This document shows positions 10,043 to 61,246 of a stretch of 64,000 nucleotides of DNA, one piece after another. Under the pieces are notes generated by a model that worked only from the letters and a program-made list of their open reading frames with translations, was not told where the DNA came from and did not search any database. The stretch's first letter is position 1. Each line of letters starts with the position of its first letter. The position numbers and the translations under genes were made by a program. Origin of the DNA: Bolinopsis microptera (taxonomy: Eukaryota > Ctenophora > Tentaculata > Lobata > Bolinopsidae); the NCBI RefSeq assembly GCF_026151205.1, contig NC_087076.1, positions 2,441,902 through 2,505,901 of the forward strand. Reading direction: 5' to 3'.

Positions 10043-10427
10043 CTGGGGAATTGAGGTTAATAGTTACTAGGAGTAGGAGTCATGAAATTTATCACTTCAT
10101 AAAATTTAGGCATAAATTCTTCGAAAAATGAACGATTTTCCACAAAAATTTCAGTTAGATATTTGCCTTAGTTCATTATTATTCCTTATTATTCCAGTCA
10201 TTTTGCTTTCAATTTTAAGCATGTAGGTGGTGGTCTGAGTTGTTTCACATTATGAAATTTACGATCTGCCCAGTAACTACTAAAAAATACAGTGATGATG
10301 GCACAGTACAAAATGATAGATATACAATAGTGATATTTAGTCTCTCAATCAGATAGTTTAGTTTACTTACACTCAGCATATCTTATCATACCCCTTTCAC
10401 ATACAATTATCATTATGACGCCTCACC

Positions 10428-10940
10428 AGATGGTCGAAAGTTTTGACCAGTGTCCAGTTCTTTGAGAAAATCCTTCTTCCCCACATAGAATCAGTTCGAG
10501 CCTCCATCAACAACCCTGAGCAGAAAGCGCTACTGATATCAGATGTGTTTCGGGCCCAACACACACAGACACTAAAAGATCTGATGACAGCCAACAACTG
10601 CATCCTAGAGAAAGTTCCAGCTAATATGACCCATCATCTACAGCCCCTGGACATATCTATCAATGGACTGGCTAAGAAATTCATGCGCAATAAGTACGAA
10701 GATTGGTACGCGAAAAACATAGTGTGTCAGCTCAATGGAGGAGTTTCATCAGACAATGTGAAAATTGATACCCGCTTGACAGTGATCCGTGAAGTACACG
10801 CTCGTTGGATCAACGAACGTTTTGTATATTTAAAAGGGAGGCCAGATGACATAAGGAAAGGCTTTGAGAAGTCGGGTATAACTGATGCTTGTAGATCAGA
10901 CTTTACGGTGGATGATAATCCATTTGCAGATCTTGTTTAA
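10428..10940 (+). pseudogene. Truncated pogo/Tigger-type DDE transposase
   Basis: The open frame encodes the C-terminal part of a DDE_1-type (pogo/Tigger/jerky) transposase. It has LLISDVFRAQH, holding the second catalytic Asp, and HHLQPLDISINGLAKK, holding the third acidic residue, followed by a C-terminal region ending in VDDNPFADLV. The N-terminal DNA-binding domain and the first catalytic Asp are absent. The frame is closed upstream by a stop at 10416, just before a WSKVLTSVQFF segment typical of the domain interior. It is a 5'-truncated relic with no visible terminal repeats. Confidence 0.8.
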
Positions 10941-17073: not shown

Positions 17074-20000
17074 CTATTTGACAAGATGCTTGTACTTGGA
17101 GTAGATAGCGTAAAGCACCCTGAGGGTTGATTTCAGGTCCTTGCTGACGATACTTTCAGCAGTACACTTAGGTCGAGGGATTCCTGCTTCTTGCATCAAA
17201 TTCAGGGCGAGCGTAACGTTGTGTAGCTGAACAAAAATAAGTTAATTAGATATTCAAAATCTGAATACGCAGGCCTTAAAGTAATCTGAAATTTATCTCG
17301 GTAAACAGCAAATATTTAACAGCCTGTCTAAGAAATCCATTTAGGAGAATTCAAGCGTTACCGCTATACTAGCTAAGATGAAGGCCAAGGCCTCAGTGTC
17401 AGTTAGAAATAAAGTTTTAAGGAAACTCAATTTAAAACGTCAGTTAGCAAACACCACTATTAGCACGTGATAAGCGCGTGGAGCAGTTTTAAACCAGTTA
17501 CCTTGTGGTCATAGGCCTCAGGTTCCATGCTGAAAGAGTACATTGGAACATAGTACCCCTCAGCCAGACTCATCATGACCACCAAGTTTACACCGTTAGC
17601 AAAGTCCTCCTCGATATTGCTGCAACCTCTGTTTATCTGAGACAACTGCTTGTTCGCAAACGCCATCAGGGACTGAAGAGAATAGGTTTAGTTAACGAAG
17701 ACAGATACACAAAACAAGGATTAGTGTTTTTAGACAACCTGTTTCCTTGTTTATGTCTGGAGAATAGTTTGTTTCAAAGTAAACAAATAACAAGAGTTTC
17801 GCTAAAAGAACTCACAAATGATCCACAGACGAACGCGACGTGGTATGTTGTAGTACACAAAACTAATAAAGATTGATAAACTGTAACTCAATGGCATCTC
17901 TTATGATATCAAACTGAGAAGTGACTTACCCCCTTAACAGCATTGAGTTTGTCGGGAGCAGAGTCGAACAGGGTGTCGAATACATCACGTTCCTGCTGTC
18001 TGGCGGCAAAGTTGTAATGTCTGAAACAGAGACTATTAGAGACTAGCAGAGATACAAGAGACTATCATAGACTATTAGAGACTAGCAGAGACTAACAGAG
18101 ACTATTAAAGACTAGAAGCGACTATGTCACGATCTATCAAATCAATAGTATAAATTCTGTTTTATTGAGCTATGGTTTAGATAAAGTGCACTACTGCTTA
18201 GATATTAAAAGAATTTGGTATTGTTCCGACTTTGTTCTTTAATAACTAGTTGGGAGTTTAGTGCACAAATTTTTGTTTGGCATGCGATAAATCATGAGAA
18301 CTATTGAAAGAAAAACATACTCCTTATCTTTTTTTTCACAAACAGCATAGATCGGAGTAGACATTTCAAACTTATTAAGATAACAACGAACTAGAGGGCT
18401 TGAAAATTGTCGAGACACAAAAGTGAAATAGTAATATCTCAGTAGAACAGATATGAACTGTAATACTAAGTTGAGTAGCAACAATGTATTGAATGTCAAG
18501 ATAAGCCAGGACTTGCAATCATCGCCACTTCATCACTCCCACTACGAGTTCTAAAGGTAGGAATAAAGACAGAAGCCAGGGTGCTGCGACAGATTTGAAT
18601 TGCATTCAATCAACAAGTGCTGGAGAACAGGCATATTGTGAGGAGAGCCCCTGACTCGGGGGAGGGGCCTCACTACATGAGCTGTAGGGACTACTTATCA
18701 ACAAGTTACAATAATGTAGAGGGATATGAGATAAAATACTCACTCTCTTTCCTCATCACCAGTAATCTGCTCGGAGATTGTTTCTGTTTGTTGTGTCGCT
18801 TTCTGGTGGAAACAAGGTATTAAAGGAGGCTAGAATTTCCTTTTTTTGACATATTAAGTTTAAATAATCTCGATTTATCTGCACAATTTTATTTATTTTT
18901 TGGCTGAGAATCTTCGAACATAACTTCAATCAAGTTTACACGCATTCTATTGCAAGCGCTATTTCCAGTACTCCCTTATAAATATACTTACTGTTATCTG
19001 TAGAACTTGTATCTTGACAAAGCTAGGGAGTCTCCTTGGAATGCCGTAGTGTCTTGCCAGCGCCACCAGCAGATGTAACACAGATATCAGGTATTTGTTG
19101 TGGATATTGTCCACATTCCATTTGATTCCGTCATCTACAACCTGCAATGATGGATTCATCTAGAACTCCGCGTTAGTTTCTTTTTATAAATAGGCCAGAA
19201 ACAAATCTTCACTCTACCTAACTAATTATCAAGTTGATAACCGTAATACATTGGGGGGGGGGGGGGGGGCGGGGGGGGGGGGGCAACCATATTAAAGTAT
19301 ATTAAAATGTAGGATTTTCCCCGATTTTGACCCGGGGATATACTTTAATATACTTTAATATACCTACAATATACTTTAATATATCCCTATCTCCTTGGAG
19401 GCCTACATCAAAAATTGTTGCGCAAAGTAAGCTTGAAATGCAATTCTTAATCGATTCCAAAAAGTTCTTGAAAAAATATTGAAAACTGATGGAGTTATTT
19501 CAATTTTAATGAAGCCATTTTGGCTAGTATTCCGAACCGAGATATTATGTGCAATTTTCCCAATTTTGTTCATGGAGGTCTTTTTACTTAGTATCCACTA
19601 TATTCAACAAACACTGAGTTATATCTTTCACATAGAGTTAGTCTCATTAAAAAATATTGAAATTTTATCGAATTTGGGCAAATGCGAATTTGAGCAAAAG
19701 CGTTTGCCCAAATATGGGCATATTTTTTTAAGCTCATAGCTCAGCCAATTTTTTACCAATCTGGATGGAAATTCATGTACTAGTCCTAAAACAGGCTTAT
19801 CTTGCGAATCTGAGTGAAAATATAGTTCATCATGTAAATCTTAACGAAGAATATAAATCTTCTAATTGTAGGTATATTAAAGTATATTAAAATGTAGGAT
19901 TTTTTCCGATTTTGACCCGGGGATATACTTTAATATGGTTGCCCCCCCCCCCTACATTTATCTATCTACAAAACTTGGCTTCAGATACAGGGTGTCTAAG

Positions 20001-23000
20001 AAAAAAGGTAACCAGGTGACTTTTGTTTTAATAACTCGCCTCAGATTTAACTTAACAACTTAAAACTTCAAAATTTCATCAGGAACATGTTCATTTTGCC
20101 CATTCAGTTTTTGAGGCTCTAACTAGATGTAATTTCCTGACCATATTTATAATCATATCGAATGCCCGTTGTCAAACAGTTCCCAACAGTTATGGATTGA
20201 ACAATGGAGGCACGCACGTACGTTTTCTTCTCGTATAGAAATTAGCGAAACTAAGCTGTAGAGGCACGCGCGTATATAAACCAGGACGTGTAGAAATTAA
20301 CGAAACTTAATTGTAAAGGCACACGCGTATATACACCAGGACGTGTAGAAATTAACGAAACTAAACTGTAGAGGCACGCGCGTGTATATACAAGGACGTG
20401 TAGAAATTAACGAAATTAAACTGTAGAGGCACGCACGTATATATATATATTATTAGTCAGCCACAACTATCAGTAAAACACCATCTGACTTCAAATGTCG
20501 GTTAAATGTACCTTTACAGTCATCCTCAATAAATGTATTTAATTGTAGTTGTGAAAATAGTATATATATATATATATATACGGTATACAAGGACATGTAG
20601 AAATTAACGAAACTAAACTGTAGAGGCACGCGCGTGTATATACAAGGACGTGTAGAAATTAACGAAACTAAACTGTAGAGGCACGCGCGTATATATACCG
20701 GGACGTGTAGAAATTAACGCGACGACTGCATCTCGGGACCGCAATAATTGACCCCCCCCCCCCCCCCCCCGATAATTGACCCCCCGACAATTGACCCCCT
20801 ATGAAATTATACTGGGTCAATTGTCGCGAAATCTAGGGTTTAGTACGACAATTGACCCCCTATGTTATTACACTTGGGTCAATTGTCGCGAAATCTAGGG
20901 CTTAGTACGACAATTGACTCCCCATGTAATTACACTAGGGTCAATTGATCGGGTTAGGGTTAGGGTCAGGGTCAGGGTCAGGACAAGGATGAGGGTTAGG
21001 GTTAGGGTTGTATTAAATTATATTGTCGGGGGGTCAATTGTCGGAGGTAAATTGTCTCCCACCCCTGCATCTCATCTTCATAAGTAGACATAACAGCTTT
21101 TAGAAGGTTTGTAAAATTAAATTGTGTGACACAGACAATAAATGACGTTCTCAAAATGTTCTTGAGTCACTAACACTGATCACTTGGTATTTTTTGGAAC
21201 ACCCTGTACAATCTCAGAACATTAACCACGTGGAAAAAGTTAAAAGACTATTTATACCTGGAGATGATAGTTGATCTGATTGAGGACTTCAGTTAGTTTA
21301 GCTTTCTGAGAAGCAATACTTTGAGCTACTTCCTTGTGCTCTATCTTAGCTCCCGCTAGTTTCTCTGAGTACAAGTATAGGTTAGTGGACATAAATACTG
21401 GATGTACGCTAAACTGCTAAACGAAATGTATGCTTCATTCAGATAATAGGGGCAGTTTATCTTTCAGCACTTATGGAAATACAATTTAAAATCAATAACG
21501 AAATCTTGAAAAGTCAATAATCCCGCTCATAAGCTGAACAAAACCTTTCAACTTGTAATTAAATTAAGTGATTAATTAACCCATTAACACTAACCAATCA
21601 GAGCGGAGAGGACCTGACCGTCGGACAGATCCTCGCAGAGGTTCTTAACCACAATGTGATCATCAGTGAGGACGTCGTTAATCCACTCCTTTAGTTGCTG
21701 GGAGAGGGCCTGCACTTGGGGGTCCTTCAGAGATTCATTTGATACTTGTCGTTTGTAATCTCCACTTTCTGCGAGGATCAGGGTTATTTTAGTGGGGTGG
21801 CAATTTGGTTATTTGCCGGCCAAAACTCATGCCCCCGGTCAATCCCAGAACGGTATTTTCACCTTAACTTTTCCTTTTTAAAATTTTATCATATACAGTT
21901 CTTCAAATTGTTGAGTGTAGGTTAAGTTGTGTTTGAGTGTAAACTGGCAGTCAAACAAATGCAGCACTCATAAACAGCTGTACAATATTTTTATTACTGA
22001 ATTGATTATTTCTCCTAACCTGGCATTAACAGTAAGGGTAAACCGGCCCCAATCCCCGGCTCAAAATAGCACCCCGGCCAAAAAGTGGCTTCCCGGCTAA
22101 TAATCTGCCCCCCGGTCACTGGGTGGCAGAGAGTGGGAGGGTTAAATAATATGGAACATTTAACAAATAAGCTGAACTAATTGGTGTGTGTGTGTGCTAA
22201 TGGAAGAACAATGATGGATTAAAATAGTGAAGTTTCCAGTCAAACAATGACATAATGATATAATGGGTTCTAGTAGTTTGTGCTGTTAACAAAGATAACT
22301 TCTGTGTTGACAGGTGAAAGTCACGTGGTATGTGGTAAAGTTGGTGACTTTATTGACAAACCATCTTACACACGTATGTCTCAACCACTTACCAGAAGCT
22401 AATATCTTCTTTAGTTGGGATTCGTTAGTTAGAATCATGGCGGATAACCCTAAAAAACTGCTTCTACAAAGATAAACTTATGAATTTTTGAAATAAGGAC
22501 GCAAAGCACTGAACTATTACATATATTTATATCTTAGTGAGCAAGAAAACCACTGATAATCTTAATAAGAACTAATGAGAGTAACCAGGTCAGAGAGAGA
22601 GGCTGACAGATGTGCCGCGAGAGATAACTACTGTGTAGAAGTGCTCAGTTCACATGAGATACGGTATACTGGTTTGCTTGTTAACTAATTAATTACTCGT
22701 GCGACGGAGAAACGTCTCGCTCACTCCGCGCTACCATCTGTCAACAGTACAATATGGATCGACAACAACGACAATTACGAGCGTGAGATTTTTATACAGT
22801 TCAAACTAAAACGTTGAAAATATGCCACTGGGCAGGCACATTTCTGATGTACGCAAATATCACAAGCTAATTGATTCCTCTCGGTGGACTTATTTTGATT
22901 GGATGAAATTAGCAGAATTTTACGAACTTAACAAACAATAATTAACAACTTCACATTGCAAGTTTCATTGTAACCGGTGCTATTATTTGCGACCACAGCA

Positions 23001-26000
23001 ACTTAACCTAAATTGTAATTCATTTTCGTTCCTGCAATGTACATTTTCTAAGTTTTGTGTCTAATTTTGTAGTTTAAATATTTAAATTTCTGACTTCCCT
23101 AATCTTAAAGAATTGTATCAGGATAAAAGGCGATTGTACACTAAATTACATACTACATATATATTATACATAATTGATAATATACATACATGTATATGAT
23201 ATAACTAGGACTATAATAAGTTTATCCACTCACCATCCATGCCTGTTTCCATAATTCCAGAAGTCAGAGGTCTGAGGGCTTCTTCTTTTTCTCGTTCTAG
23301 CTCGTCAACTGAAATGATTTAATTTATTGGATCTAGATAGTATACTCTATATTTATACATATTACATAGTATCTTTAGTATGGGACAAAGGAACCTGACA
23401 AGGAAGCAATAAGTATTACCAAATAAGGGTTACGACCATGGTCGCTAAAATCACCACATCGTATATAATTGACACGGAACTAGCCATGCACTTATACTAT
23501 ACCACTATACTACTATACTAGCAGACTAGAGCTGAGTTAAGGGTTGGTTCCCACACACCAATATCTTATGAGGAAGCACAGTTACAGAATAAAGTTGCAC
23601 GACTAAGCGTACACTCTGCTCCCACTGAATATAGAGAGAACGACAAATAAGGAGGCCGGGGTTGAATAAATACATTAGCAGATAGTTCATTCTACGCACT
23701 CGCTCACGCTGTACAGACAAGAACACAAGACAATCCACTTCAGACCAACAAAGATCCTCAGAGTTAGGAAAACCTGAGACTTGGTAACCACTTTGCACAA
23801 TTGGGCACTTTCTTTTGCGGGACATGGACCAGCGCTTCCTTGGTAGTAACTTTAGGACTGACTTCAGGGTAAAAGCTCGGCCACTGTACGCGTTCATCAC
23901 CAGCTCGTCAAAAACACAGATCAACTAACTTCAATTATCAAATGAGAAAACCGTAAAACATTGACGGACTGAGCTGGAGTAAACGGGAAGTTAGAGACGA
24001 GGTAGGGTTGGTCCGGAGTGACGGCGCACGCTTGGTAATGGTCCGGAAATGACAGTCACGTGACTGTCACAACGGGTCGTTAGAACAGTTAGTCTTTGTG
24101 CCCGAGACAAGTCAAACAGTTATCCACTATTGTGTAGAAGTGGTTGCAAATAACTTATCCCGCTGTTAGCCGCGTCATGCTGTACCACTCGCATGAGACG
24201 GGAAATTGTGATTTGGAGGAGAGATCTGTGTCCAGAGTTTATGAGACGGATTCTTTTTTTGGCTCATGAGATGAGATAATTATTTAAATTTACCTGCAGC
24301 GATACGAGCCGTCCGGAGAAGAAAACAATAAAATATGATATGGCGACCAAATGTGAGTGTGACACTGACAGTAAACGGTTCAGTGGAACCAACTCAGGTT
24401 CTAAATACCCAGGTTGAGAAAAAAAACTGGACTTCCGATACAAATCATGAGTGTTGACGTATCCATGATAACATCCGGATATTCTACGGTAACAAAGATA
24501 AGATGAGGTGTGAAGAAGGGGATTTACCTTCTTTACAAGCATTTGCAACACCAGCCTTCTGTCGGCCGAGAAGAGTAGCTAGGAGGGTCATATTGGAGGC
24601 TTATCTTGCACCTAGGACAGCACAAACTATAACAACTACAGGAGGGTTTTAACTAAAGCAACGCAGCAATTACATCGTTCTCTGACGCAGGGCTCATTGG
24701 GTGGGCAAAAACACGTGACGAAAATACTGTCTTCTGACTGGCGGTTTCGTTGTGATTCTCAACAGGCGAACTTACACGCCTGTCATCAAGTTTTGGGGGA
24801 GTTTTATACGATTATATTGTACAAATGTTAAGTCACAAGAATGTGTGTGTACGTTAAATTAAAATTTCAGACTACAATCCGCGGACGGGCGGCAAGGATA
24901 AGACAAGATTTGACAATGACTATCGGCTAGTAATGTACTGTTTGTCATAATAACTACTGACTGTATCCAATAAGTAGGCAAGGGTGTGCCTAGAAAAGTG
25001 ATCCGCTGCAACAAAGACACATATAAGAAAGGCAAATCACAAAAAAAACCGTATTGGACACGGACAGTAGACGGAAATAACACAGGGCAATACAGTGACA
25101 TAACTTTGACGTGGTCGGACAGTAAAACAAAACAGATGTCACACCCTAGTACAGTTAGTAGATGTATAGCTACCCTACAACTGTAGCTGCAACTCTAACC
25201 TAGAATAAAAAAACGGTGCCTACTCTGAACTATTTGAATTAAACGTCAATGGAACAAAGCTTTGTTGCTTTATTATATCAGTTCTGAACCATTTCATGCC
25301 TGATCGACAAATCAAGAAGAAGAATTAAGTTTATTATGCGTAAATTATAAACAAATGTTTTTCGATAAATGCTGTAAGCACTCCAAATTATCTTCGGGTG
25401 TGAGGGTTAAATGAGGAGCTGTGCTTGATCAACACAGCGAAGCCTCGGGCGAAGAAAGTGTGGCATAGTGCCTTAACCGTCGCTGGCCTTATGAACGATC
25501 CTTCGGCTTCTTGTAAAGCTCTTCCTTGAAAGTGCTGGTTTACATTGTAATGCAGGTAATGCCGAAGTAAAATAACAAAAGGTGGTCGACTCATTCGATG
25601 GCCTTGTTGCGTCGCAACGAATCCTCATAAGATAAGATAAGATAAGATCTTCAAGGACCTCGGTTTTGCTGTTAATCGTTGTCAAGCGAGATTTGAGAAA
25701 TTTTAGTTTGGTGAAAGTTCAATCTTATCTACCTTAAACCCATCTTTAACCGTTTCGTCGAGCACAGTCACCTTCACGAGTCTGGAATGACACAGTTGGG
25801 GAGGCCCAGGGGAGAGGGGGGGGGGGGAAGGTTATTAAATTGCTATCTTTGATCCATTTATCTACCGCCCAATTGATCTACATTATTCGATATATATGAA
25901 CGAGAAGTTAGACTGAGAGTAAGAGCACTTTTATTGCAAACAAACTGTGACCAGAAGGTCGGCTCAACTGGAAGCTATTGGCAAAATAACATGAATACAC

Positions 26001-29000
26001 CTTATTATTATCGCATGCCAACATTTTAAAGTATTAAGAAAATTTACCTGAGTTGAATATCCTTTTCCTTTGTAATCCTGTTTTCTGTTTGCGGAGAACC
26101 GCTTTATTAGCCATTAGAATGTTAATCGTAAAACTGGTATTCTAAGTGACTCTCAAATTTCCATGGCTCATAAAAGGGTCTGCTCTGATAGTTTTTCGAT
26201 AAGATGATGTGTCACTCCGCAGTCCGCACTCATATACAATTTTCAACAAAACAATTAACATGACCAAGAAATGCTAACTAGCACTGAGATGATAGATCTG
26301 CAAGAGGAAACGATCTATGAAATTCCATTGTTCTGAAAGTTAGCAACTGTTGGCATTTCAGGAATTTTTCTTGACGAATCAAGAAGAAGAATTAAGTTTA
26401 TTATGCGTAAATTATAAACAAATTTTGTCGACAAATCCTGTAAGCACTCCAAATTATTTTCAAGGATCTCGGTTTTGCTGTTAATCGTTGTCAAGCGACA
26501 TTTAAGACATTTTAGTTTGGTGAAAGTTCAATCTTATCTACCTTAAACCCATCTTTAACCGTTTCGTTGAGCACAGTCACCTTCACGAGTCTGGAATGAC
26601 ATAGTTGGGGAGGGGGATCGGGAGGGGGATCTGGAGTGGGAACCTTGTCTATAAGTCCAGCTGATAAATAGATCGGGAAGGTTATCAAATTGCTATCCTT
26701 GATCCATTTATCTACCGCCCAATTGATCTACATTATTCGTTATATATGACCAAGAAATGCTAACTATCGCTGAGAGGATAGATCTGCAAGAGGAAACGAT
26801 CTATGAAATTCTATTGATCTGAAAGTTAGCAACTGTTGGCATTTCAGGAATTTTTCAGATCACTGCTAGTTCATTATTTGAAATGAAGTACGTGTTGAGC
26901 AGTGAGCACGTATATTAGTGTAAGACAGCTGTCCCTCAAATCCTCAAGTCTCTTGATGATCTGCAATTATTTACCTAGGGCAAGTCGTATCTGGGTTGGA
27001 GTGCTCTTATCCATTCGATTCACAGGAAGAATGGTGTAAAGAAAGTATCACCTGACCGGTGTTATAAAATAACTGGTAAATCAACTGAGATCGGACTTTT
27101 TTCAGCTACGGGACAGAGTCAGAGATTATCATATTGACAACAATTTGTATTATTTGTACTGTTCGAGATTATCGATGAACTTGAAGGAAAAAATTGATTT
27201 CTAGATGAGATCGAAGTGACATGAAGAAACATGAATTTGAAGTCAGGTTACATATAGAAGGGTAACTATCTAATTAAGCTTACCATATTTGGCAGAAGAT
27301 ATGTGCATCAAGTGACCGACGTGGGTAGGAATACTCTCCGAACCAAGAGTCAAATTGAAATCTTTTTTGAACACGAACATGATAAAAACGCGGCGGACTA
27401 TAGGCAAACTTCGAATCAATTAATAATGCTTTATTTGGATAATTTTCATGTTGAGCTATGCGAAAAAAGTCATTGGTAATGAGCTCCAATTTCTTAATAG
27501 TGTATTTTCATGAGGGGAAATATTACTTAGTCAATTAGTCTGCCACAGAGCTAGTCAGCCACAGAGTCTGAGATAAACTGTAAATCTACAGTCGGGTAAC
27601 TACATTTGTGAACGGTACAGCGGAACTTTCAAGGAAGGTTAACTGCGGAATCACGTGACAGCCACATGATTATGGATACTAGTCAGACACCGTACCAATA
27701 CACCATTGACCATACCAATGATAAACCTGGAATTACATATTGTACGCATTATGTTATTTAATAACTTTTGTCTTACTTTCTTAGACGAAACCGTGCAATA
27801 TCGTAAAATAACGTAATAATAATTGATAGAATACAATGTTTAGCCGAAAAAGTATGTAACATGATTCGTACAATAGGAAACACTTTATCATTGGTACGAT
27901 GCACGATTCAGCTGCATTGTCCATAGTAATGTGAGCGTCATGCGATTCCATGGTCCAGCCAATTTGTTACAGAGAAACGTGAATGTTACAGAGTCCATTA
28001 TAGTTGTAGTAGTAGTATTATATTGAATGAAGTACGCTGACGGTCGCATGTACGCTGTGTGTCACCTCCTTACGAGCAGCATCACCTGTTTTATATCTCG
28101 AGGACCGCCTGGCTTCTTCAGGGATCCATTCTTAGATTTTGACCGACTTGAAACATGATCATTTTTGCCATCCGTTTTTTGGATTTATCGAAAGTATGGT
28201 GGAAGCAATTAAATGGCTAATTTTTGCTAAAGCACAAATTCTTAATTTTACATCTTAACGATGAAGACCTATTACCCCTTTTGTCTTCTTTCCGCCATAG
28301 TGGAAATACTCAAGTGTCCGTCTCAAAAATCCAAAATATTAAAGATCCCAAGTTAAAGATATCTAGCTCCGAACTGATCACTTACCAAGGTGAGGACGGT
28401 ATCCTCTTTTATCGTCTCCATCCCCACTGAGACACAATAACAATGGTGTCTTGTTCATATCCACTGTTCAGACCAGATACAGATAATTCAACAGTTTTAG
28501 ACAAAATGTAGTTAATTGCTTTGAGAGGGAAAGTGAGATTACGGAGACTACTCGAGACAAAGTGTTATCTTCTACAGGTAGTAGTTCAGGTGGGTGATTT
28601 CCTCCAACAGATCTTAAAATTCTAAGCTCTCTTTGACAAGCACGAACAACTAAAATATGTATTATATAAACTATAGAAATATTAGGCAAAACAAAGCTGG
28701 GAAATGCCCAACATTTTTTGATCTTTGCCAAAATTGAGATGAACAAAAGAGTAGCGGCTAAATTTAACTACTTTCCACTCTTGCCAGATCAAACTAAATT
28801 TAATTGAATTTAACCAGTGCTCATCCTATTAACAAAAGCGTGCCGTTTAATTGGGTAACAAAGCAAACGGTATGAACTCTTTTTTTAGCTTAGCCAATGC
28901 TTTGTTTCTTCTTTACAAACACACTTAACATCATACTTGAAAAGGAAAAGTATGAGGTACAGAGAAAAATAATGGTACAGCGGCAGATGATCCAATTATA

Positions 29001-32000
29001 TAGCTAGAGACCAATTAAATGATTTGGTTACAATAGCAAGCGATAAGAAATTAAGAGCTGCAAGCAAGCAATTAAGAGCGAATAATGAAACATAGGCAGG
29101 TTGTATTAAAGCAGCGAGTTATGCAGGTAAAGAAGATGTCGCGAGTTGGGAGGAAATGAGTTTCACAATGAGTACGGGCACGAATAGTCTGCATTACAAT
29201 TACAGCCTTGACTTCACGGGTTGTATAAATTCTGCAATCTACTGGAGGCTACATTTCAGTCGACGGCCTAAATTTTTCTATGCAACAGAGCAAATTTTAA
29301 TGAGACTATATGGGAATTAAAGACAGTATAAAACAAGTGGCGAGCACTTGGTATGACTAAGGTGACTTATTGGTTTAACAATCGCGTTTCAATTTAATAA
29401 TATTAAATGCTTCCTTAATGTATATTGTTGAGCTAAGTTAGTTTATTGTCATTATATAGACAGTATTCAGCTATCATGATTCATGATGTAACTTTCGGGA
29501 GTATGGTTCAAACCTCAGCACCCCTAAGGTACAAGAACTCATTTAAGTAAGTGAAATTACCATCAGTCATCTCAACTTTCATTTCAACTTTGTTCAATCC
29601 TCATCTTGCCAAATGCCCGCGATATTTTCCAATCATATGGTTGTACGGTATCCAACACATAAAGTTATTTGGCATTCATAAATTTCGCTACGGAAGTACT
29701 AGTTAGAGAGTAAAGACTGGAATTAAGCAACAATTACAAATTAGGAACGAAGGATTAAAAATTAAGAAAAGTATTGTGTTGTTAGTCTATTGTGGATCAG
29801 TTAGAGCTATACGAAACGGTCGACCAAAATCAGCGGAGATCTTGGACAGGTAGTCGTGTGTGCCAACCATTGATATGCTGCCTGATCAATATATCACATA
29901 ATTTAATTACAAACAGGTGAGAAAATCACAAATTTCTTTACAGATAAAATATTTCTCGGCGTCCTAAACCGCACTACAGCTCGTGTTAAATACACGAATA
30001 GCTAAACTAAAATATGATAATAATATTGAATAACGAACTTTTCCTAATTTGAACGCCTTCAACTTTCAAAGAACGAATTAGCAACCCTGCTGCTGTAGAC
30101 CCGAAGTCTGATTCGGATTAGTTCAACTGTATTTCTAATAACTAATTTATGAATTAATATGTTGAACATACTACTGCTTAGATTCTATTCGCCATAGCAT
30201 GCACCAAATGGCTTGTTCGTATAGAAAGACATTGTACGTACAGTGCAGCTAACATTGAATATATGGCTCAAGCCGGAAGGAAGCAGCGTACAAGGTTTAA
30301 ACTATATTAGATATACTATTGCTGCACATATCTCCAGATATTTGGTGGTTAACTCCAACTGAGACGTTTTTTAACAGTCCCGATGAAATTACAGTAACCA
30401 ACTGATGAGAGGTTCTGGATCATCACCCGCTCAGTAGATCAAAGTAATGTCGAGAATCTTAAAAATGCTGGAAGTAAAGTCTCAGAATGATTAATTAGGT
30501 AAGTACAATTTGCCACAATTCTCAAGCTGAGATATTTGCTTTCACCTTATATTAGAGTGACATTTTCATAATCTTAAGGGGGATACTCACGTTTAGATAA
30601 GATTTTAGGGATGGGATCTTTAGCAGGTCCTCTAGCAGCCAAGTCTTCTGACGAGGTTTTCATGATGGTATGTGTGTAAAGACTTGCGTTAGAAAGCCTC
30701 TTATTTAGGCTTGCCGAGGAGCCAGAAGTAGGAGTATTCATGACTCAACTTATCAAAAACTAGTATTACAATTGCTAATACTATGAAATATCCTTCACAA
30801 CAACTGGGTAAACAACAGAGCTCGATCCAGCACAAAAAACAGGGCGTACAATTATAGATCTCTGTAAGTGACCGTGTCCTGATAAAAGGTGATCACGTGG
30901 CATCAGCCAAGCTCTCTTGTTGGCTGGTTTGAATCACGTGACTGACATACAAGTCTCTGACAGGTTGGGATACGGAGGAAACCGTTGCAGTTGTATGGGT
31001 GGCTGCTAGAGATAGTGGCCTGTGTTTGGTGGCGGAAATTTAATGGGTAATTAAACCTAGGGAAGCACAATATTCAGTTTACCATTAACTTAATTCTACC
31101 TTACTCTCTATATGGTATTATCAATTACCTAGACTTAAGAGTCGTAGGCATAATTATACAACCTCTCTTAAATTCTTAATGTTAATATTCAAAGATATTT
31201 GTTTCCTCTGTTCGTGGCATGGTCAAACTTGGACTAAATAATGCGCGAATAAAATTACAGTACTAGACAGAGTGGCGACAAACTACATACACAGTGGCAA
31301 TCAATAATCAGTATGTCAACAAAACCATTACCAAACTGTTATCCTAATATTATCGACGATATTTCGCCGCAGATACTGAATAAATATAACTGTCAAGACG
31401 GCGGACTAAAAACTTACAATTATCGTAGATATCATGTCTATAAAAGAGATATGATTCGCCCTCATCCTGCTGCTTTTCAGATCTGTCAGATCTTGGTCCG
31501 ACAAATTCCTGCCTGAGGGGAACTTTTCCCACCATACTTTGTTCCGGATGATTTGACCTGACCGGAGCACACTCAGCAGACCCATCAAAAACTTGAAAGC
31601 CATCTTCTGATTCAGTCACATTTCTGTGAGCACTGGCTGTGAGTAAAACTTCCTCCTCACTGTCCTCCACGGTATTTTCTCCAGCTTCAGTATCAGTCAC
31701 ATCACCCACTATATCACCGTAATCTTCACAGATATCCGGTAAATTTTTCTGAATACCAGTTACACTGTCACATTTCAAAACAACTTTTTCTGCGCCAACA
31801 AATTGAGTTGCTGGCCCGTAGAATCTAGTTGGATCAGATTCATAGGCAGGACTTAAAACATCGACTCTACAACAATTCATAGCTCTAACAACAGAAAACT
31901 TAGCGATTAAGATACAGTCGAAAGTGTGATACATTTCACACTGTACCTTTTACAAATTTATGATGATCTTTCCAAAAAATACTCAAGAGCAGATTTAGTG

Positions 32001-33279
32001 GCGTCATATGTCTGCTGCTTTGAAAGAAGATAAAGGGGGCACGTACTATATTCTACAATAAGTACATGATGAACTATCAGCTAACTGCTGAGCTATCATG
32101 ACCTAATTTGATTACATTTTTGATTTTCCCCCTTGACTTAATGAATAAGACGAAGCCGGTAATCCTTATTAAATTTATCTTATAACTTAAAATTCAGGTA
32201 ACAATTTAAAATATAAGCTCATGGTTTGTTTTCATTAATTTCTACAGTTCGGTAACTTATAATCACATATGATTATCCACTATATCAGTAACTAGATACC
32301 GAACAGAACCTTGTAAGAATCTGTATATTATATTGTATATTATACATATTACTTTAAGTGACTCACCTTAGGTTGAAGATGTAGAAGTTATTTGCAGCAG
32401 CAAAGAAAAAAAATCAGTTCAGTAAACAGAAGCTATGTACAAACTAAACTGTCAAGCAACCCCAGCCATACGCTATAACTTAATTAGTAGCCCGAGAAAT
32501 TCATTGCTTTAAACGAATATATATAAAGCAAGTTATACAGTCATACGAAGCAAGCAGGACACAACCATAATAGGTAAAATTAACCGTTCTAAATGGTAAT
32601 TACTTTAAGTTTAATTCGTGATCCTTTTCATAACTTTGTAGCCTGCCCCTCTGATTTGGGGCTCGAAATCGCCCTAAATTAAATATAATCAAGACTTTGG
32701 TCATAACGGACATTACAATTTCTAAATTGACTTCTAAAATTGAAAAGAAGAAAAAAACCGTTGCATGTCTGCTGAATAAAACAATAAAAACTGTCAACGC
32801 ACATTATCCGAATGTTAGAATCGACTAAGCGTAGGAAAGTTTTTGACGGGAAAATTTTCAACAATCATACAAAATGTGGTTGTCTAGAGACCGTTAGAAT
32901 GATAAATGAGAGAACCTAATCATAATAGCAGGTTACGTTATTCAGCTGCTGTTGTTATCTTTTCTCATCGTATTCCTAAAATAAATGCAGCCAAAATTTA
33001 GCTACCACCAAAAAACTCAGCCGGGCAATTTGTGGAGACAAAAACTCGACTCAACAGATTCCAAAAATTTAGAACGCTAGGAACACGATTTTGAGAACAT
33101 GTACAAAACATGATAATAAAAAGTTAACCACTCTTACTTTGATCCTTCTGATGCTTCTTCTTGCGACTGAGTGTATTTGTTAGAGTATCCAGCTTGCTAG
33201 AGAAAGATCTGTCCCGGGGCTCATCTGGACTTTTGTTGCTGGAGACAGAGCTTCCTTCACTACGACGTGGCAGGGACAT
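17074..33279 (-). CDS. PARV: Parvin (integrin-linked kinase-binding actinin-like adaptor)
   Basis: Distal first exon 33138-33279 plus eight shared exons: 23234-23308, 21595-21768, 21258-21364, 18992-19141, 18744-18802, 17930-18020, 17502-17672, 17074-17226. The product is 373 aa, the usual parvin size. Parvins carry two unusual calponin-homology (CH) domains and link ILK-PINCH to actin at integrin adhesions. The N-terminus is Ser-rich and basic (RDRSFSSKLDTLTNTLSRKKK). CH1 runs from about residue 90 (LKEWINDVLTDDHIVVKNL) through KWNVDNIHNKYLISVLHLLV. The linker then reads RDVFDTLFDSAPDKLNAV. CH2 contains DFANGVNLVVMMSLAEGYYV and ends STLRVLYAIYSKYKHLVK, the family's typical C-terminus. All intron phases match. 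At least five further exons could replace the first one (listed separately). Assignment is very firm; which vertebrate paralogue it matches is undecided. Confidence 0.95.
18028..18123. repeat. Tandem repeat of AGAGACTA-type units in a parvin intron
   Basis: About seven imperfect copies of AGAGACTAKYAGAGACTA-like units lie directly upstream (on the gene strand) of the exon at 17930-18020. Confidence 0.85.
19253..19952. mobile_element. 700-bp element with poly-G/poly-C terminal inverted repeats
   Basis: It starts with a run of about 30 G (one C inside) followed by CAACCATATTAAAGTATA. It ends with TATACTTTAATATGGTTG followed by 11 C, so the ends are inverted repeats. The flanks carry TACATT on both sides, consistent with a 6-bp target duplication. 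A block of about 75 bp with TTTTGACCCGGGGATATACT is repeated directly just inside both ends. It sits in a parvin intron and has no transposase; an 86-codon frame at 19479-19739 is not recognised. Confidence 0.75.
20203..20720. repeat. 55-bp minisatellite, about seven copies, interrupted
   Basis: Units contain GTGTAGAAATTAACGAAACT and GTAGAGGCACGCGCGTATAT. Five copies precede, and two to three follow, an unrelated stretch of about 150 bp (20445-20585) that itself ends in a (TA)n run. The CGCGCG core gives each unit a local CpG cluster. Confidence 0.9.
20737..21060. repeat. AATTGACCCCC repeat cluster with degenerate TTAGGG repeats
   Basis: AATTGACCCCC and its inverse GGGTCAATTGTCG alternate about every 40-70 bases, next to an 18-base C run. 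At 20951-21010 there are GGGTTAGGGTTAGGG and GGGTCAGGG-type units resembling interstitial telomeric repeats. The cluster begins and ends with inverse-oriented motifs, so it may be a palindromic element. Confidence 0.7.
22393..22438 (-). CDS. PARV: Candidate alternative first exon of parvin (proximal)
   Basis: ATG plus 15 codons (MILTNESQLKKILAS), then a consensus donor TCTG|GTAAGT in phase 1. It lies downstream of the shared exon 23234-23308, so it would splice directly to the exon at 21595-21768, which also begins after phase 1. The result would be a 316-aa parvin lacking the acidic DELEREKEEA segment. Support is only the fit of start, frame and donor; short exons like this can arise by chance. 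Confidence 0.45.
24528..24591 (-). CDS. PARV: Candidate alternative first exon of parvin
   Basis: ATG plus 21 codons (MTLLATLLGRQKAGVANAC...), with donor GAAG|GTAAAT in phase 1 matching the shared exon at 23234-23308. The leucine-rich then basic composition resembles the usual parvin N-terminal FLxKLxxTLxRRKK region. Transcript evidence would settle it. Confidence 0.5.
25396..25646 (+). mobile_element. 251-bp SINE-like insertion with (ATAAG)n tail and 6-bp target duplication
   Basis: Comparison of the two copies of the local duplication shows this block is absent from copy B. It is flanked by ATCTTC on both sides (25390-25395 and 25647-25652), is GC-richer than its surroundings and ends in ATAAGATAAGATAAG. 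A tailed, non-coding insertion with a target duplication suggests a SINE. A pol III promoter is not clear: TGGCATAGTGC resembles an A box but no well-spaced B box was found. Confidence 0.6.
26048..26114 (-). CDS. PARV: Candidate alternative first exon of parvin
   Basis: ATG with G at +4, then 22 codons rich in Lys/Arg (MANKAVLRKQKTGLQRKRIF...), and donor TCAG|GTAAAT in phase 1. Spliced to the shared exon at 23234 it gives an open frame to the normal parvin stop. The basic run matches the character of the distal first exon (TLSRKKKHQK). Confidence 0.55.
26975..27014 (-). CDS. PARV: Weak candidate alternative first exon of parvin
   Basis: ATG plus 13 codons (MDKSTPTQIRLAL), with donor CCTAG|GTAAAT in phase 1. 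It fits the shared exon in frame, but at this length chance is a real possibility. Confidence 0.3.
27284..27308 (-). CDS. PARV: Weak candidate alternative first exon of parvin
   Basis: ATG plus eight codons (MHISSAKY), with a good donor ATG|GTAAGC in phase 1. A longer open frame through the same donor is in phase 2 and would not fit. Too short to be convincing without transcript data. Confidence 0.22.
27315..30590. other. Parvin intronic sequence, no other gene seen
   Basis: AT-rich sequence. A seven-codon ATG exon at 29561-29582 (MKVEMTD, phase 1, donor GTAATT) is the only other parvin-compatible start noticed, and it is weak. Open frames at 28224-28430 and 28468-28746 show no family features. 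Confidence 0.4.
30591..30741 (-). CDS. PARV: Alternative first exon of parvin
   Basis: ATG plus 50 codons, then donor AAAC|GTGAGT in phase 1. The product is Ser/Thr-rich, then basic (MNTPTSGSSASLNKRLSNAS ... PAKDPIPKILSK). Joined to the shared exon at 23234 it gives a 376-aa parvin, so it replaces the distal exon without changing length much. The exon length, consensus donor and correct phase make a chance match unlikely. Confidence 0.65.
31418..31934 (-). CDS. PARV: Alternative first exon of parvin, long acidic N-terminus (or separate small gene)
   Basis: A long open frame begins at 31934 (or, preferred, at the in-frame ATG at 31880, MNCCRVDVLSPAYES). It runs to a strong donor AATT|GTAAGT in phase 1, exactly what the shared parvin exon needs. 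From 31880 it would add 154 residues, giving a 480-aa parvin. The segment is acidic and Ser-rich (ENTVEDSEEEVLLTASAHRN) with no known domain. If the donor is not used, the frame continues to a stop at 31350-31352, so an unrelated 176-194 aa nested gene remains possible. A frame this long is improbable by chance in DNA this AT-rich. Confidence 0.55.
33138..33279 (-). CDS. PARV: Distal first coding exon of parvin
   Basis: ATG at 33279 follows an acceptor-like polypyrimidine tract (TTTTCTCTCCTCTCTTAAAAG|CACTATG). A non-coding 5' exon therefore probably lies upstream; a strong donor (GAGAG|GTAAGA) ends at 33569. It encodes 47 residues with the family-typical SFSSKLDTLTNTLSRKKK, and ends CAAA|GTAAGA in phase 1. 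Confidence 0.85.
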
Positions 33280-33568
33280 AGTGCTTTTAAGAGAGGAGAG
33301 AAAAGTGATTAGAATCAGTAAAAAGATCAAAGTGTGATAAGATTAAATCAAATCTCAAAGTTGGAATCAGAGGTAATATTCAGTAATATGCTTACAAATA
33401 ATTGGAAAAACTGTAAAAGTAACAATTTAGTGAAATCACTCAATCACATCACTCTCACCAGATCAGTTGGTTTCAGTTAATCAAGGAGATGATAAAAATC
33501 ACACACTCACGAGCGCTTACAAACAGAAAGCACAATAAGGTTACACATAGAGTGCCTCTTGCTCTTAC

Positions 33569-33640
33569 CTCTCAATTTCTTCAGTGTTTATCTGCAGCTC
33601 TGCAGATAGTTCCTTTAAGAAACACGTGCTCACGTTTCAC
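33569..33640 (-). other. PARV: Candidate non-coding 5' exon of distal parvin transcript
   Basis: Strong donor TTGAGAG|GTAAGAGC at its 3' end (position 33569), 290 bases upstream of the ATG. The 5' boundary is a guess. Confidence 0.4.
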
Positions 33641-34423
33641 CAGTCTTGCTTTCACTTTTCACTAATTCGCCGGACACACTTTCGCAGTTTAACAAGTTAA
33701 CTTTACAATCAGTCGTTCAAGAATAAAACAAGGGGATTAAAACATATTAAATTCGGCGATATCATAAAGTGTTAATAGACACAATTTACTGAGGTATAAT
33801 ATAAAAACAAATAATTACATAATACATAGCTAATAGAACTTCTGAAAAAATCTGTTTCGTTATATATATTATGAGGTTTCGTATGTCAAGTGGTCCAAGG
33901 GAAATGAAATTTAACCAAGCGGAATTTATAAATAATCCTTTAAATTAATTTCCAAACTCTACTGGCTCAGCCAGTCAATAGCAAAATTTCTAAACAACGT
34001 CAACAATAATACCCATGAGTGTGAGCGATCACATTTTTAAACATAATATATTTATTAAATATGTAAATTATGTATTTGTTATAGTATACATTAAAATATA
34101 ATATTTACAAACGATATGTTATATAATTGTACATTGTAAAAAGTTGTTTGTCAGTTCTATAATTATTGTACCATCCAATCAAGATAATCTGAACAATCTT
34201 GCCCCGTATATAAACCATTTCGGCTCACCATTGACCATACATTCGACCAAAGTAACACAAAAAATCACTCAAGGTAATTTGTTAAAAGCTCCATCACATT
34301 ATAAGTACAAGAAATGTTTTGTTCATCAGGAATGTAGTGAACTAAACCAAAATATCAACCTCAAAATAAGATCAATAATGAACTTTACCCAACTTCACTT
34401 ATATTCTGATCTGACTTGAACAA
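33641..34423. other. Intergenic between parvin and PPP2R3C
   Basis: AT-rich sequence. A 91-codon plus-strand frame at 34144-34419 lacks an ATG start and any domain, and overlaps the probable PPP2R3C 3' UTR. Confidence 0.4.
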
Positions 34424-43399: not shown

Positions 43400-45613
43400 T
43401 CATAGACCGGGGATATCTCTCAAGTTACTCAGCACCCTCTGTGCCTCATTCAGTGCAGTCAGCATCTTGGTTGCGCGTTCTCGTTTCTTAGTAACTGCTT
43501 GGCTCTCTTGGAGCAGCTCGTCAAACTTCTCCTCGCAGTAGAGCTCGCTAATCAGGGTACTGGAGAGAGATTTAGTCAGGTAGGCTACCATAAAGAACAT
43601 TATCGTCTTGGGAATTGTGTCCTGGAGCTGCTTGCGGATAATTGTAAAGTATTGGACGATCAGTAGCTCTATCATCTGGACCTCCTCTCGCTCTCGTTTT
43701 GTCAGTTTGTGGTCTATCTCCTTTCCGGAGTCCGTGCGTTCTGAAACAAAACCAGTTTTAGTACTAGAGCCAAATGAAATAAAGATATTTTGTAACACTA
43801 ACATGTGTACTCAAGTTCAATGAAATACTGGCAATATTTTACAAATTTTTGAAACATGGTTAATACAGCTTTTATCGAAGGCTGTGATTTAATAAATTAA
43901 TAAAAATAGATTATAGTAAATTCAAAAAAATCGATCTCGAAACTTAAATTTTCTGCTGATGAAATAACTACGTTTAACATTGGGAACTGGAGGAAGTTTG
44001 CACTAACCTCTTTGATCACAAATGCTAATTCTGGATATCATACTGGAAACGGAGGCTGCATCTTGAGAGGGTTCTGAGTTGGTCTTTAATCTCTCGGACA
44101 TGGCCCTGTACCGGTACATGAAGTCAGGGTGGTTGGTGTTGATGTATCCTTGCTCGATGTTCAGTAGATTCTCTACCATGTGACGTGTTGGCGGTAAACG
44201 CTCGCTCAGAAGGTTGATTCCTGACGTCATAGCAGCTGACTTCAGGTTATCAAACCTCTCAAAGTGTCTTGTGCAGGTGACCGAGATGGTGTTAGCTAGT
44301 TCATCGTATGACAAGTCCACAACTCTCAAACATAGGTCTCTCAACAGTCCTATCTGACGTTTAACCAGCATTTCAAACGCGATTTCTGGTACAAAAAGTG
44401 ACGGTCTAGTTCCCATAGAGTTTCTTACAGCATGTCTAACATCTGACAGATTCAGTCCAGTCATGGGATCAAACTCCTCCAAGGCTTTACCAAACGTGTC
44501 TTGGAATATGTAAAACAGCTTTGCTCCTCCTGATATTTCTGTTGTTTGGATATTGGTTGAGTTACCGTTGATAACACATCTGAATTCCTCGCAAAATGTG
44601 TTGATAAGCTCTAGAATGGCAGGTCCTTTCTTTGAAATGGTTTTACCTAAATCATTTATTACAGCCTCCTGAACTCCTCTCATATGGGACACTCTACTTC
44701 GGAGACCGGGCAAACATTTCTTAACATGGCCCATCAAGATGATACTAAGTCTTTCAGACAGATACGATGTTCCCATCTTTATTGCCAGGTTAGGGTGGCT
44801 TTTGGAAAAGAACTTTTCCTCTTCCTCCAAGGCTTGTTTTATTGTTTTGCCTGCCTCAATGTCTAATTGGGATCTGTTGACTATACCAACAAGTCCAAGC
44901 TTGACGGGTAGGGTTATTCCTTTTAACAGGTTCATTCCCTCAACTCCTCGCTCCATCAGGTCAACCTTCGTAATAACGGCAATCGTTCTCTCACCAAATG
45001 GATCTGCTTTCCTTGCAACTTTGATAGCATCAGATGTAGCGATGTCTTGATTACCAGGAGTGATGGCTAGGATTATTGCATTTTCATTCTCAACATAGCT
45101 CAGGATAAGTTGCTCAATTTGCGTTTCAATATCCTCCGGCTGACCTCCAACAGGCACTTTAGTGAGTCCAGGCAAGTCAACTAAAGTTAGATTCGGCGTT
45201 GAATTACTGAAAATCTTGAGGTGAATGGGGACAGCTGAGATACCTTTAGTGTTTCCAGCAACTCTCTCTGTATCAATACTTATCTCCTGTTTTACCAGCT
45301 CGAAATCTGTAAAAATCTCCCCCTTTCTGTGGAGGAACTCTGCCCAGATCATGTGCTCGACTCCATTAGCACTACACTGTTCATCTGTGTTTATAAGCTG
45401 CAGAATCAAGGGACGACGTGTTACAATTCCCATTCCACGTGGTAGAAAGTCCCGGCCCACTATGTTCTCTAGGACAGATGATTTACCAGAGGACTGGGAG
45501 CCTAGCACCACGATCTGGGGCAGGTTCATGGAATCAGACGAAACACCAACTGTTGTAAATACATCTTGTAGCTTATTCATTGTCTCCAGTAAGGAGGCAA
45601 GTGTAACCACCAT
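43400..45613 (-). CDS. DNM1L: Dynamin-related GTPase, DRP1/DNM1L type
   Basis: Two exons, 44008-45613 and 43400-43740; 648 aa. It is a large GTPase of the mitochondrial/peroxisomal fission class. The GTPase domain covers about residues 15-310, with P-loop GSQSSGKSS (38-46), switch I region GMGIVTRRP, DLPGL and TKVDLM. The middle/stalk region includes KLFYIFQDTFGKALEEFDP and PSLFVPEIAFEMLVKRQIGL. The C-terminal GED contains EREEVQMIELLIVQYFTII. There is no PH domain or proline-rich tail, which separates it from classical dynamins. The variable domain between stalk and GED is only about 40 residues, against well over 100 in vertebrate DNM1L. It has a single intron although its neighbours have many, and is well diverged, so it may be a lineage-specific paralogue. 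The donor is GTTAGT. Confidence 0.92.
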
Positions 45614-45939
45614 ATTGCTTCTTTAGACCTTGCCTGTCGCATTTGAGATCAAATCTTATGTTTTTAATTAAACAGTGTTTAAAATTTAAATGTAAAATTT
45701 AATAAATTAAGGTAGATAATTACGTTTGGCAACCGCATGTTTACACGACAATTAAAATACAAATAATATACGGCTACTGTCAATTTTAAAACCTTGAGTG
45801 AAACAAATTAAATGCGATATAATAATGATAAATTATGAGATGTTAAACAATAGATATAATGTACACTGTACAGGTACCAATAGCCAATACTTTTAACAAG
45901 TAAGCATAATATTTGCCTTCTAATGGTTATGAATAAGTT
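45614..45939. other. Short spacer
   Basis: A 326-base gap between the dynamin-related start and the stop of the next gene. It must hold the promoter of one and the 3' UTR of the other. No motif was recognised. Confidence 0.4.
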
Positions 45940-58828: not shown

Positions 58829-61246
58829 TTAGTGCGATTCTTTCAATTTTGCCTAGGTCTAACTTCCATATCAGTTCATATCGCCTTTGTGTGTTGTGCA
58901 CATGTGCCGTTCTTTTATGATATTCAACGATCATTCTGTGGTCTATAGTTCATAATTCGTTCTTTATCTATCCGTCTGCCAATCAAATGTTTTTGTAGTT
59001 TGTACAGTGTTGGTGGACAAGTTTTTAGCGTAGGTGTAAAATGATTTGAACGTTTAATATATCTGTTATTGCATCCGGATCACGTATACTTTCAACTTTT
59101 ACTTTTATGACGAAGCCTCTTGTAGTGAAGGTTTGATCTCAGAGTCAACTAAACCATAAACAGTCTTCTAAGAATAATTAGTTAAAATATAGCTTCACTT
59201 ATTTGTACTGGTTCCGGCTATCTCGTGTGTTTTAAGTTTCAAATCCCCGTGTTCTGTTCTCAGGAAGCTGCCGTTAAATATTTTGTCTCAGAATTTAATA
59301 AACTTCATCTTTCAGTCGTACAATCCACAATATATTTCGATAGTGATACTGACTCTGAGATATATGCTGAGAGCTCGCATTATTTCTTACTATCTAGTAC
59401 CTGATTATATATTGATATTTACCTGGGATAGGACAGGCTTATGTGACCACTGACACAATTTATATCGTGTAATATCATAACTTTAGAAATCCTTGTATAT
59501 CCCCTTGCCTGTTCTTTGTCACAAATTTTAGGCAAACAACTGTTTAATCCAAATTTATTGTTTCGAATTCGAATTTGCCACTCTTGCAATTCCTGTAACT
59601 CATAAATTTAATGAGGGACACCTGCCAATTTATCAATATCGATAAAAAAATATAACATTTGTTTGCTCGCATTATTTCTTAAGTTCTTTATCTTACTATC
59701 TCATGCCTGATTATAGACTTTGCCACCTAATAGTCCTGTTTTTTACACCTGTTGTTTTTGTACGGCGCCACCGTAAAGTTTTCCACCGTAGAGTCTTACG
59801 CCATAGATTCCCAGACCCACTTACATTCACCGTGTAGATCTCCTGTAAGACTAAGACTAAGAGTAAGAACATTTTAAACTCTGTTACCATTGAGACAGTT
59901 TCAAGTAGAACGAGTCACCGTGTAAAATAAACCGTACTATTATAGCTGATCATTGGCTGTTTATGACATATAATACTATTCACCGACGTTTTTAGCAAAC
60001 TGCGATTGTCATGACTACCTCAGTACCTCTCGATCCTCGTTATAATTAACATTATTATCTTGCTATACGTGGTGTTGGCTTTTATTTTCCGTTTCACTTT
60101 TGCAATTTCATCTATTTTGTCTTGGTCTAACTAGTGTGCTATCGTATCATGCTATCGTACCATGTTAGTTTACAATGCTTTTAGTCATTAGTGTCGCTCT
60201 TTTGTGATATTTAATGATCAATCTGCAGCACTTAGTTCTCTATTCATCCATCTGCGAAGAACATATTAGCTCACTTTTGATTATTTGAACCTTTGGTTAT
60301 TGGTACATCTGTCAGTGTCAATGCAATCACGTCTACGATTTACTTTATAACGAAGCATCCTTCATCCTAGTTATCATAGACATTAGACATGGAGTAAATT
60401 AAACTGACTCTACTAACAATCAGGTAAAATATGACTTTACGTATTTGCACTGGTCCCAGTTATTTCGTGTGTTTTAAGTAGCACATCCCTGTTTTCTGTT
60501 CTCTGACCGATAGACTTAATAAATCAATGTGTGATTATTGTTTAAGAAAGTTGCCGGTAAATATCTTTTATCGGAAAGCCTGATCATTAAGTTGCACTTT
60601 ATACAGGGTGGCCCATGATAGTCTACCCATCCTTATCTCTTAAAATTGTTACAGGTCGCTGAGATCTTGCTAATTATTTTAAAAACAAAAAGTGGCATAA
60701 CTTATGTTCTGATAAATATTTTTTCTTCTAAATTTCACAGAATGTTAATAACAAGTAGATGAACCTTTGTGGCAAGTTTTGTGTGATTGAGAGCTTCACT
60801 GAGCTTATTTGACCAATTAAGCCCCTGAGCGAGCTAGCTTGAATTTCTCACCCAGAACTGTTTACATTGGTTAATAGAAACCACCAAAAAAAATCCTGGG
60901 TAAAAAAATTAAAAAACCACCGATTTATTTATGTTTTACCAATTCTATTCACCACGATGCATCGCACATTCCATTCTCTACACTGCTGTACAGTGTACAT
61001 CCTATATTTTAACTGCAGATAAGGACTATCACAGATGATCCTTCCTGCTTGTTTATATCGTTCTGCTCACTTGCCTTAACAAATTTAAAATTATAGCTGG
61101 ATGATTAGCCTACAATTTTATCGATTTTACAAACGGTGGTTTGAAATAGGTTTACAGCAGGTCAGCCGATTCCCATGAGATGAGTAAATAAACTTGAAAA
61201 GAAAACAAACGATAACGTAGATTTCCGGTCGATAATCCATAATCTT

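Follow-up and report, generated by a model that had tools for sequence, protein, structure and literature searches.

A single parvin was found in the genome of the ctenophore Bolinopsis microptera, and our analysis suggested that this gene has F33 as its ancestral start exon and probably two or more additional ones, F31 and F30, which would be used in place of it. All three begin with an ATG and end in phase 1, so that any of them would fit the shared exon at 23308 and yield a complete parvin whose leader differs. All positions refer to the window, the whole stretch of 64,000 nucleotides that was analysed (C5:2441902-2505901).

The parvin gene and the F33 leader

The parvin gene is complete. 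Joining F33 to the eight constant exons on the minus strand gave a protein of 373 aa with no internal stop (Table 1). In PDB, CH1 matched alpha-parvin (9uiu, 1.2e-36) and CH2 matched 4edl (1.6e-39); the best matches of CH2 were beta- and alpha-parvin, and the next were actinins at 3.4e-9. The initial annotation had named this gene parvin, which was borne out by these matches and by the uninterrupted 373-aa frame. The protein was then compared with the whole genome (264.65 Mb, 232 contigs) at E up to 1, and the matches were the nine exons of this locus only; no retrocopy or paralogue revealing leader usage was listed in this search. The upstream neighbour on the same strand, which ends near 34424, is presumably an EF-hand protein resembling PPP2R3C. 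Elsewhere in the window, a 417-aa open frame on the plus strand (61184-62437) was taken by us to resemble a mariner/Tc1-type transposase, a 173-aa open frame on the plus strand (10419-10940) presumably resembles transposase-derived sequence, and a 539-aa open frame on the minus strand (44003-45622) was taken to resemble a dynamin-family GTPase.

Table 1. Exons and candidate start exons of the parvin locus, with coding scores (bits) in two models
Feature	Position	Strand	Model 1	Model 2	Description
Possible noncoding 5'UTR exon	33569..33720 (33720-33569)	-			putative; ATG-free, donor-like GAGAG/GTAAGA, by eye
F33	33138..33279	-	17.1	8.7	start exon of 47 aa plus 1 nt, ending in phase 1
F31	31418..31880	-	36.7 (33.4 from 31934)	14.8	probable alternative start exon; 154-aa leader (172 aa from 31934)
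F30	30591..30741	-	14.4	2.8	probable alternative start exon, 50 aa
F29	29561..29582	-	3.3	5.8	7-aa candidate
F28	28386..28458 (28458-28386)	-	3.7	-0.3	candidate; acceptor-like AG 5 nt before ATG; absent from the initial annotation
F27b	27284..27380	-	2.6	2.7	weak candidate, good donor
F27a	26975..27014	-	5.2	3.4	weak candidate; donor inside dispersed repeat
F26b	26602-26581		-0.7	0.3	scored candidate of the 11
F26	26048..26114	-	3.3	0.4	candidate, LQRKR motif; within repeat island
F24	24528..24591	-	1.1	5.7	candidate short start exon
F22	22393..22438	-	3.5	4.7	candidate lying 3' of the 75-nt shared exon; would be joined to 21768
Shared exon	23234..23308 (23308-23234)	-			75 nt, phase 1 in, phase 1 out
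Shared exon	21595..21768 (21768-21595)	-			phase 1 in; CH1 region begins here
Six further constant exons	17074..21364	-			complete CH1 and CH2
Constant exons, part 1	21364-21258, 19141-18992, 18802-18744	-			
Constant exons, part 2	18020-17930, 17672-17502, 17226-17074	-			

Both shared exons enter in phase 1, in agreement with what had been claimed of them, and the length and phases of the one at 23308 make it skippable. Since this exon begins with TT, any start exon joined to it yields NTT (F, L, I or V) as the junction codon, and a hydrophobic residue before DELEREKEE is thus guaranteed with F33, F31, F30, F26 or F24. At this place F33 gives Ile, F31 gives Phe, F30 gives Leu, and both F26 and F24 give Val. 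In vertebrate parvin, Val stands at the position preceding DELEREKEE, and vertebrate and ctenophore parvin are alike in overall length and in having a hydrophobic residue at the start of the linker.

F33 encodes ...RSFSSKLDTLTNTLSRKKKHQKDQ, which carries L-S-R-K-K-K and so has the signature (LxRKKK) of the actin-binding WH2 motif in alpha-parvin. According to PMC6203859, mutating L37, R39, R40, K41 and K42 of alpha-parvin reduced F-actin binding, and WH2 mutants of the parvin complex lost F-actin bundling. Scored against the human (vertebrate) WH2 stretch, whose numbering agrees with that in PMC6203859, F33 reached a local score of 36, which was equalled by none of 216 natural control peptides (p = 0.0015 for residue shuffles). 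The WH2 residues mark F33, as judged from its sequence, as the ancestral (canonical) start exon. Among the three supported start exons the signature was seen only in F33, whose leader is predicted to bind actin. Such a WH2-like leader suggests an ancient actin-binding N-terminus of parvin.

F31 and F30 as candidate start exons

The initial annotation had described six main start exons on this strand, and all six were confirmed to have an ATG, a stop-free frame and a phase-1 GT end. Candidates were counted under the rule of an ATG, a stop-free frame, a length of at least 20 nt and a phase-1 donor at least equal to the weakest of the six. On the minus strand between 33300 and 22380, 11 candidates satisfied this rule, compared with 3.3 expected from eight random 10-kb loci on both strands (47 candidates in 154.4 kb), and none of 200 first-order Markov simulations reached 11. 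The same rule gave 1 candidate on the plus strand of the region, and 5 and 4 on the minus strand when either remaining phase was counted. Splice sites were scored with generic donor and acceptor matrices, not trained on this species, and these scores are relative only. Two control loci dominated by tandem repeats (L006 and L009, 6 candidates in 40 kb) were dropped from the controls, except in the comparison of 90 units given below.

Two models were used to score coding signal. Model 1, a three-periodic Markov model, was trained on four long frames from other parts of the genome, and model 2 on 3.4 kb of genes within the window. On the constant parvin exons model 1 gave -3.7 to 13.0 and missed one true exon; in model 2, 7 control phase-1 candidates reached at least 10 bits. 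For F33, F31 and F30, the other frames and the reverse strand scored lower in model 1, and the best coding segment of F33 (33127-33258) had nearly the same edges as the exon. Three phase-1 candidates of this region reached at least 14 bits, against 4 of the 47 control candidates in 154 kb, or about 0.3 per such region. F31 and F30 are the two probable ALTERNATIVES beside F33.

F31 is a probable alternative start exon, as suggested by its coding scores and by where its coding signal begins and ends. Its start had been placed at 31934, but the stretch 31934-31881 was without coding signal (-2.4), and the 66 nt past the donor scored -4.6, which confines the signal between ATG 31880, lying behind an acceptor-like AG, and the phase-1 donor. 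From 31880, 7 of 8 blocks had a positive coding score, and the best coding segment, 31422-31862, came close to both edges of the exon. These results make 31880 the more likely start. The leaders had also been described as similar in their basic character, which does not apply to the largest of them, since the F31 leader is acidic (33 D/E, 15 K/R). LxBBB (B = K or R) was absent from the F31 and F30 peptides. Neither Pfam nor PDB gave a match to F31 at E up to 1, and apart from F31 itself the genome held one weak match (E 0.69); the DNA of 30500-33400, with F33, F31 and F30, matched only itself in the genome. A structure predicted for F31, folded without an alignment, was uninformative (mean pLDDT 34). 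F31 was rejected as a transposon, being of one copy and having no Pfam match. It was also rejected as a cassette exon after F33, because entry in phase 1 at the acceptor before 31880 meets a TGA immediately (by eye).

F30 is likewise a probable alternative start exon, weaker than F31. Its coding signal was 9.8 bits/100 nt in model 1, where the rate among 119 control ORFs of 45-79 codons was 4.0 at the 90th percentile and 11.3 at most, and its score in model 2 was small (Table 1). The best coding segment, 30586-30735, is almost equal to the interval from ATG to donor. The frame has stops upstream, the nearest being a TGA that begins 6 nt and ends 3 nt before the ATG.

We also considered that F33 could be the sole parvin start exon, with F31 being a nested gene or an exon of another same-strand transcript, and with F30 and the short candidates being due to chance. 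The frame of F31 continues for 22 codons beyond the donor to a stop, so that a nested single-exon gene is possible, and nested intronic genes are common in ctenophores, with 2357 in H. californensis according to PMC8527503; the weak score of F30 in model 2 points the same way. However, the coding signal of F31 ends at its phase-1 donor, and that of F30 nearly coincides with its ATG-donor interval. In the minus-strand scan from F31 to 23308, the other segments above 14 bits were only F30 and 26515-26712 (15.8 bits), which largely overlaps local repeats, and therefore no partner exons for a nested gene stood out. We consider this explanation unlikely, and a parvin gene with F33, F31 and F30 as start exons is the reading that we prefer.

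Short candidate exons

The eight remaining candidates are short. In either model, 7 of the 8 scored above zero, compared with 38% (model 1) and 48% (model 2) of 123 short controls. After the supported exons were removed, 7 candidates were left at a donor score of at least 2 (2.5 expected) and 5 at a donor score of at least 4 and a length of at least 40 nt (0.7 expected), while the other phases stayed close to the expected counts. With the donor cut-off set between -2 and 1, phase 1 did not have an unusual share (binomial 0.058 to 0.336). The region was further compared with 90 control units of about 10 kb, made up of 10 loci and 5 window blocks on both strands and in three phases. With strong donors (score at least 4, 40-139 nt), the region had 5 candidates and none of the 90 units exceeded 2; within the region, the opposite strand and the remaining phases had 0 to 1 at that score. 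At a cut-off of 1.85, 2 of the 90 units reached at least 8, which is the count of the parvin region, and at a cut-off of 3 one unit reached at least 6, L006 giving the top unit at both cut-offs.

On these counts, a wide array of at least six functional start exons could be proposed, in which F33, F31, F30 and several of F28, F27b, F26, F24 and F22 would be used, every exon with its own promoter or trans-splice acceptor. The five strong-donor short phase-1 candidates and the mostly positive scores in both coding models favor it, as do the acceptor-like AGs that lie at most 25 nt upstream of the ATG in F28, F24 and F22. However, the cut-offs were examined after the finding, two control units match the region at 1.85, and the phase-1 share is ordinary at the low donor cut-offs. 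The coding scores of the short exons are also small (-0.7 to 5.2 in model 1, -0.3 to 5.8 in model 2), two of these exons, F26 and F27a, overlap repeats, and the CACGTG boxes described below are unspecific. So wide an array seems to us rather improbable. Since the cut-offs were examined after the finding, the excess of short exons is read only as a hint: collectively they exceed chance, which hints that one or more may be real, and none is individually established. Thus, of the alternative N-terminal leaders that had been claimed, one start exon is certain and two are probable, whereas the short ones do not stand individually and two of them touch repeats. In the set of weaker members, which had been given as 27284, 26975 and 29561, the donor of the second lies in a dispersed repeat and the third (F29) is probably a chance occurrence.

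Individual short candidates differed in their surroundings. F22 had the highest donor score of the candidate set, and no other genome copy of F24 or F22 was listed among the 40 of 214 candidates that were scored. The DNA search with the whole region was dominated by one repeat (39 of 885 candidates scored), and pieces were searched separately. F26 is flanked by local repeat copies, and two dispersed-sequence matches (70% and 81%) reach or enter its first codons. The stretch 25306-26856 is a local duplication of repeat units with five direct-repeat families and holds, at about 25394-25653, a high-copy element with at least 39 copies of 98-99% identity.

Two short candidates were compared with WH2. 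The LQRKR of F26 is of the LxBBB type and lies at the human spacing from the junction, and LxBBB occurred in none of the 123 short control peptides. Shuffling put the anchored WH2 score of F26 at p = 0.054 for alpha and p = 0.013 for beta, values uncorrected for the number of candidates (11). With its ordinary local score and its location among repeats, F26 was not accepted as a WH2 homologue. The resemblance of 'TLLGRQKA' in F24 to WH2 was not accepted either, as its local score of 21 was reached by 2.3% of controls, uncorrected.

Spliced leader, promoters and known systems

The B. microptera genome has spliced-leader RNA genes. The motif AATTTGAG/GTAAG, searched as AATTTGAGGTAAG, had 106 matches in the genome against 11 for the reversed control. 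Many of the first 100 matches listed lay in tandem arrays, and such arrays of spliced-leader RNA genes were found at C3:13511053-13533399 (period about 591 bp), C5:21341873-21352033 (about 857 bp) and C13:12783472-12952504. Five loci were read, and the three array loci share a near-identical leader with TTTCAACACTACT, ending in AATTTGAG before GTAAG; the two isolated matches among them were unrelated to the leader. The printed leader of Hormiphora californensis has the same features, TTTCAACACTACT and a terminal AATTTGAG, in PMC8527503.

Acceptor-like AGs were scored upstream of the candidate ATGs. Among 2564 control ATGs, an AG scoring at least 1.5 was found within 2-12 nt in 3.6% and within 2-25 nt in 8.0%; the score is crude, as two of eight true parvin acceptors score just 0.0 and 0.5. 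An AG within 2-12 nt was found for F33 (4 nt), F31 (4 nt, ATG 31880) and F28 (5 nt), and the AGs of F33 and F31 were matched in score by 3.3% and 1.2% of the control ATGs at this distance. F24 (20 nt) and F22 (25 nt) had one only within 2-25 nt, giving 5 of 11 candidates in all, or 4 of 11 if the F31 ATG is 31934. F30, F29, F27b, F27a, F26b and F26 were all without an acceptor-like AG within 25 nt. For F33 and F31, this pattern agrees with trans-splicing of the leader or with a noncoding exon being joined in cis. For F30 it fits a separate promoter: with no acceptor near its ATG, an own promoter is likely, if F30 is used.

A promoter array of six to nine members had been proposed, but we found no evidence of promoters. 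CACGTG boxes lie upstream of F33, F30, F27b and F24, and were rejected as a shared promoter motif because their density is the same in controls (7 in 12 kb of this region, against 58 in 97 kb of the control loci). In eight control loci (L005, L007, L008 and L010-L014), CACGTG was counted 45 times, against at most 21 for the other 23 palindromic hexamers with four G/C. A promoter scan of 33100-33900, which used a bacterial consensus, was disregarded. Given the spliced-leader RNA genes and the acceptor-like AGs before several ATGs, separate promoters are not required. A single promoter upstream of 33.6 kb could serve instead, with a noncoding exon or trans-spliced leader joined to F33 or F31 and with the exon selected by alternative splicing and no promoter choice; otherwise this overlaps the explanation that we prefer. 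The putative exon 33720-33569, with the donor-like sequence at its end, could feed F33 or F31 by cis-splicing, and the AGs 4 nt before both ATGs would suit it. With that exon only putative and the F30 ATG having no nearby acceptor, we regard a single promoter as a doubtful though sizeable possibility.

Under the preferred reading of three mutually exclusive start exons, F31 and F30 would be transcribed and spliced to 23308, and the start exon would be chosen by the transcription start site and/or by which acceptor takes the spliced leader. The short exons may supply further leaders. The choice would switch parvin between an actin-binding form with WH2 and forms without WH2, in which ILK binding through CH2 would be intact. 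That the spliced-leader acceptor itself is the switch, the AG before F33, F31 or another start exon setting the N-terminus and with it whether the ILK-PINCH-parvin complex has its actin-bundling WH2 arm, is an idea to which we give a low probability.

The ctenophore spliced-leader genes form tandem arrays here and end like the Hormiphora leader in PMC8527503; hypothetically, the choice of spliced-leader acceptor could swap protein N-termini. As in alpha-/beta-parvin of the ILK/PINCH/Parvin complex, the protein described here has two CH domains and, with F33, a WH2-type LxRKK(K) leader. Vertebrates have three parvin genes (alpha, beta, gamma), and isoforms of mammalian beta-parvin use alternative first exons. 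Several isoforms of beta-parvin in mammals are reported in PMC2966628. In contrast to the three isoforms of vertebrate parvin, there is here one gene with two probable alternative leaders that are without the WH2 signature. In the literature searched, no ctenophore parvin was described as having alternative start exons, though such a report may exist elsewhere. It has been argued that ctenophores are the sister group of all other animals; if our reading is true, the ctenophore diversifies its only parvin by start-exon choice, and the same adhesion adaptor would be tuned by a route different from that of vertebrates.

A likeness is also seen to plectin (PLEC), in which twelve first exons are spliced into exon 2; these are known from transcripts, and patients are mutated in single first exons, as given in PMC8468861. 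In plectin many first coding exons enter one common exon and alter short N-termini, and here several same-phase candidate start exons would fit a common second exon, as judged from phase, frame and excess over controls. Unlike plectin, parvin belongs to another protein family, and it is known here from sequence alone, with two probable extra exons. The three start exons, and possibly more, are probably of the plectin kind, which would make this gene a plausible new example of a layout already familiar from other genes.
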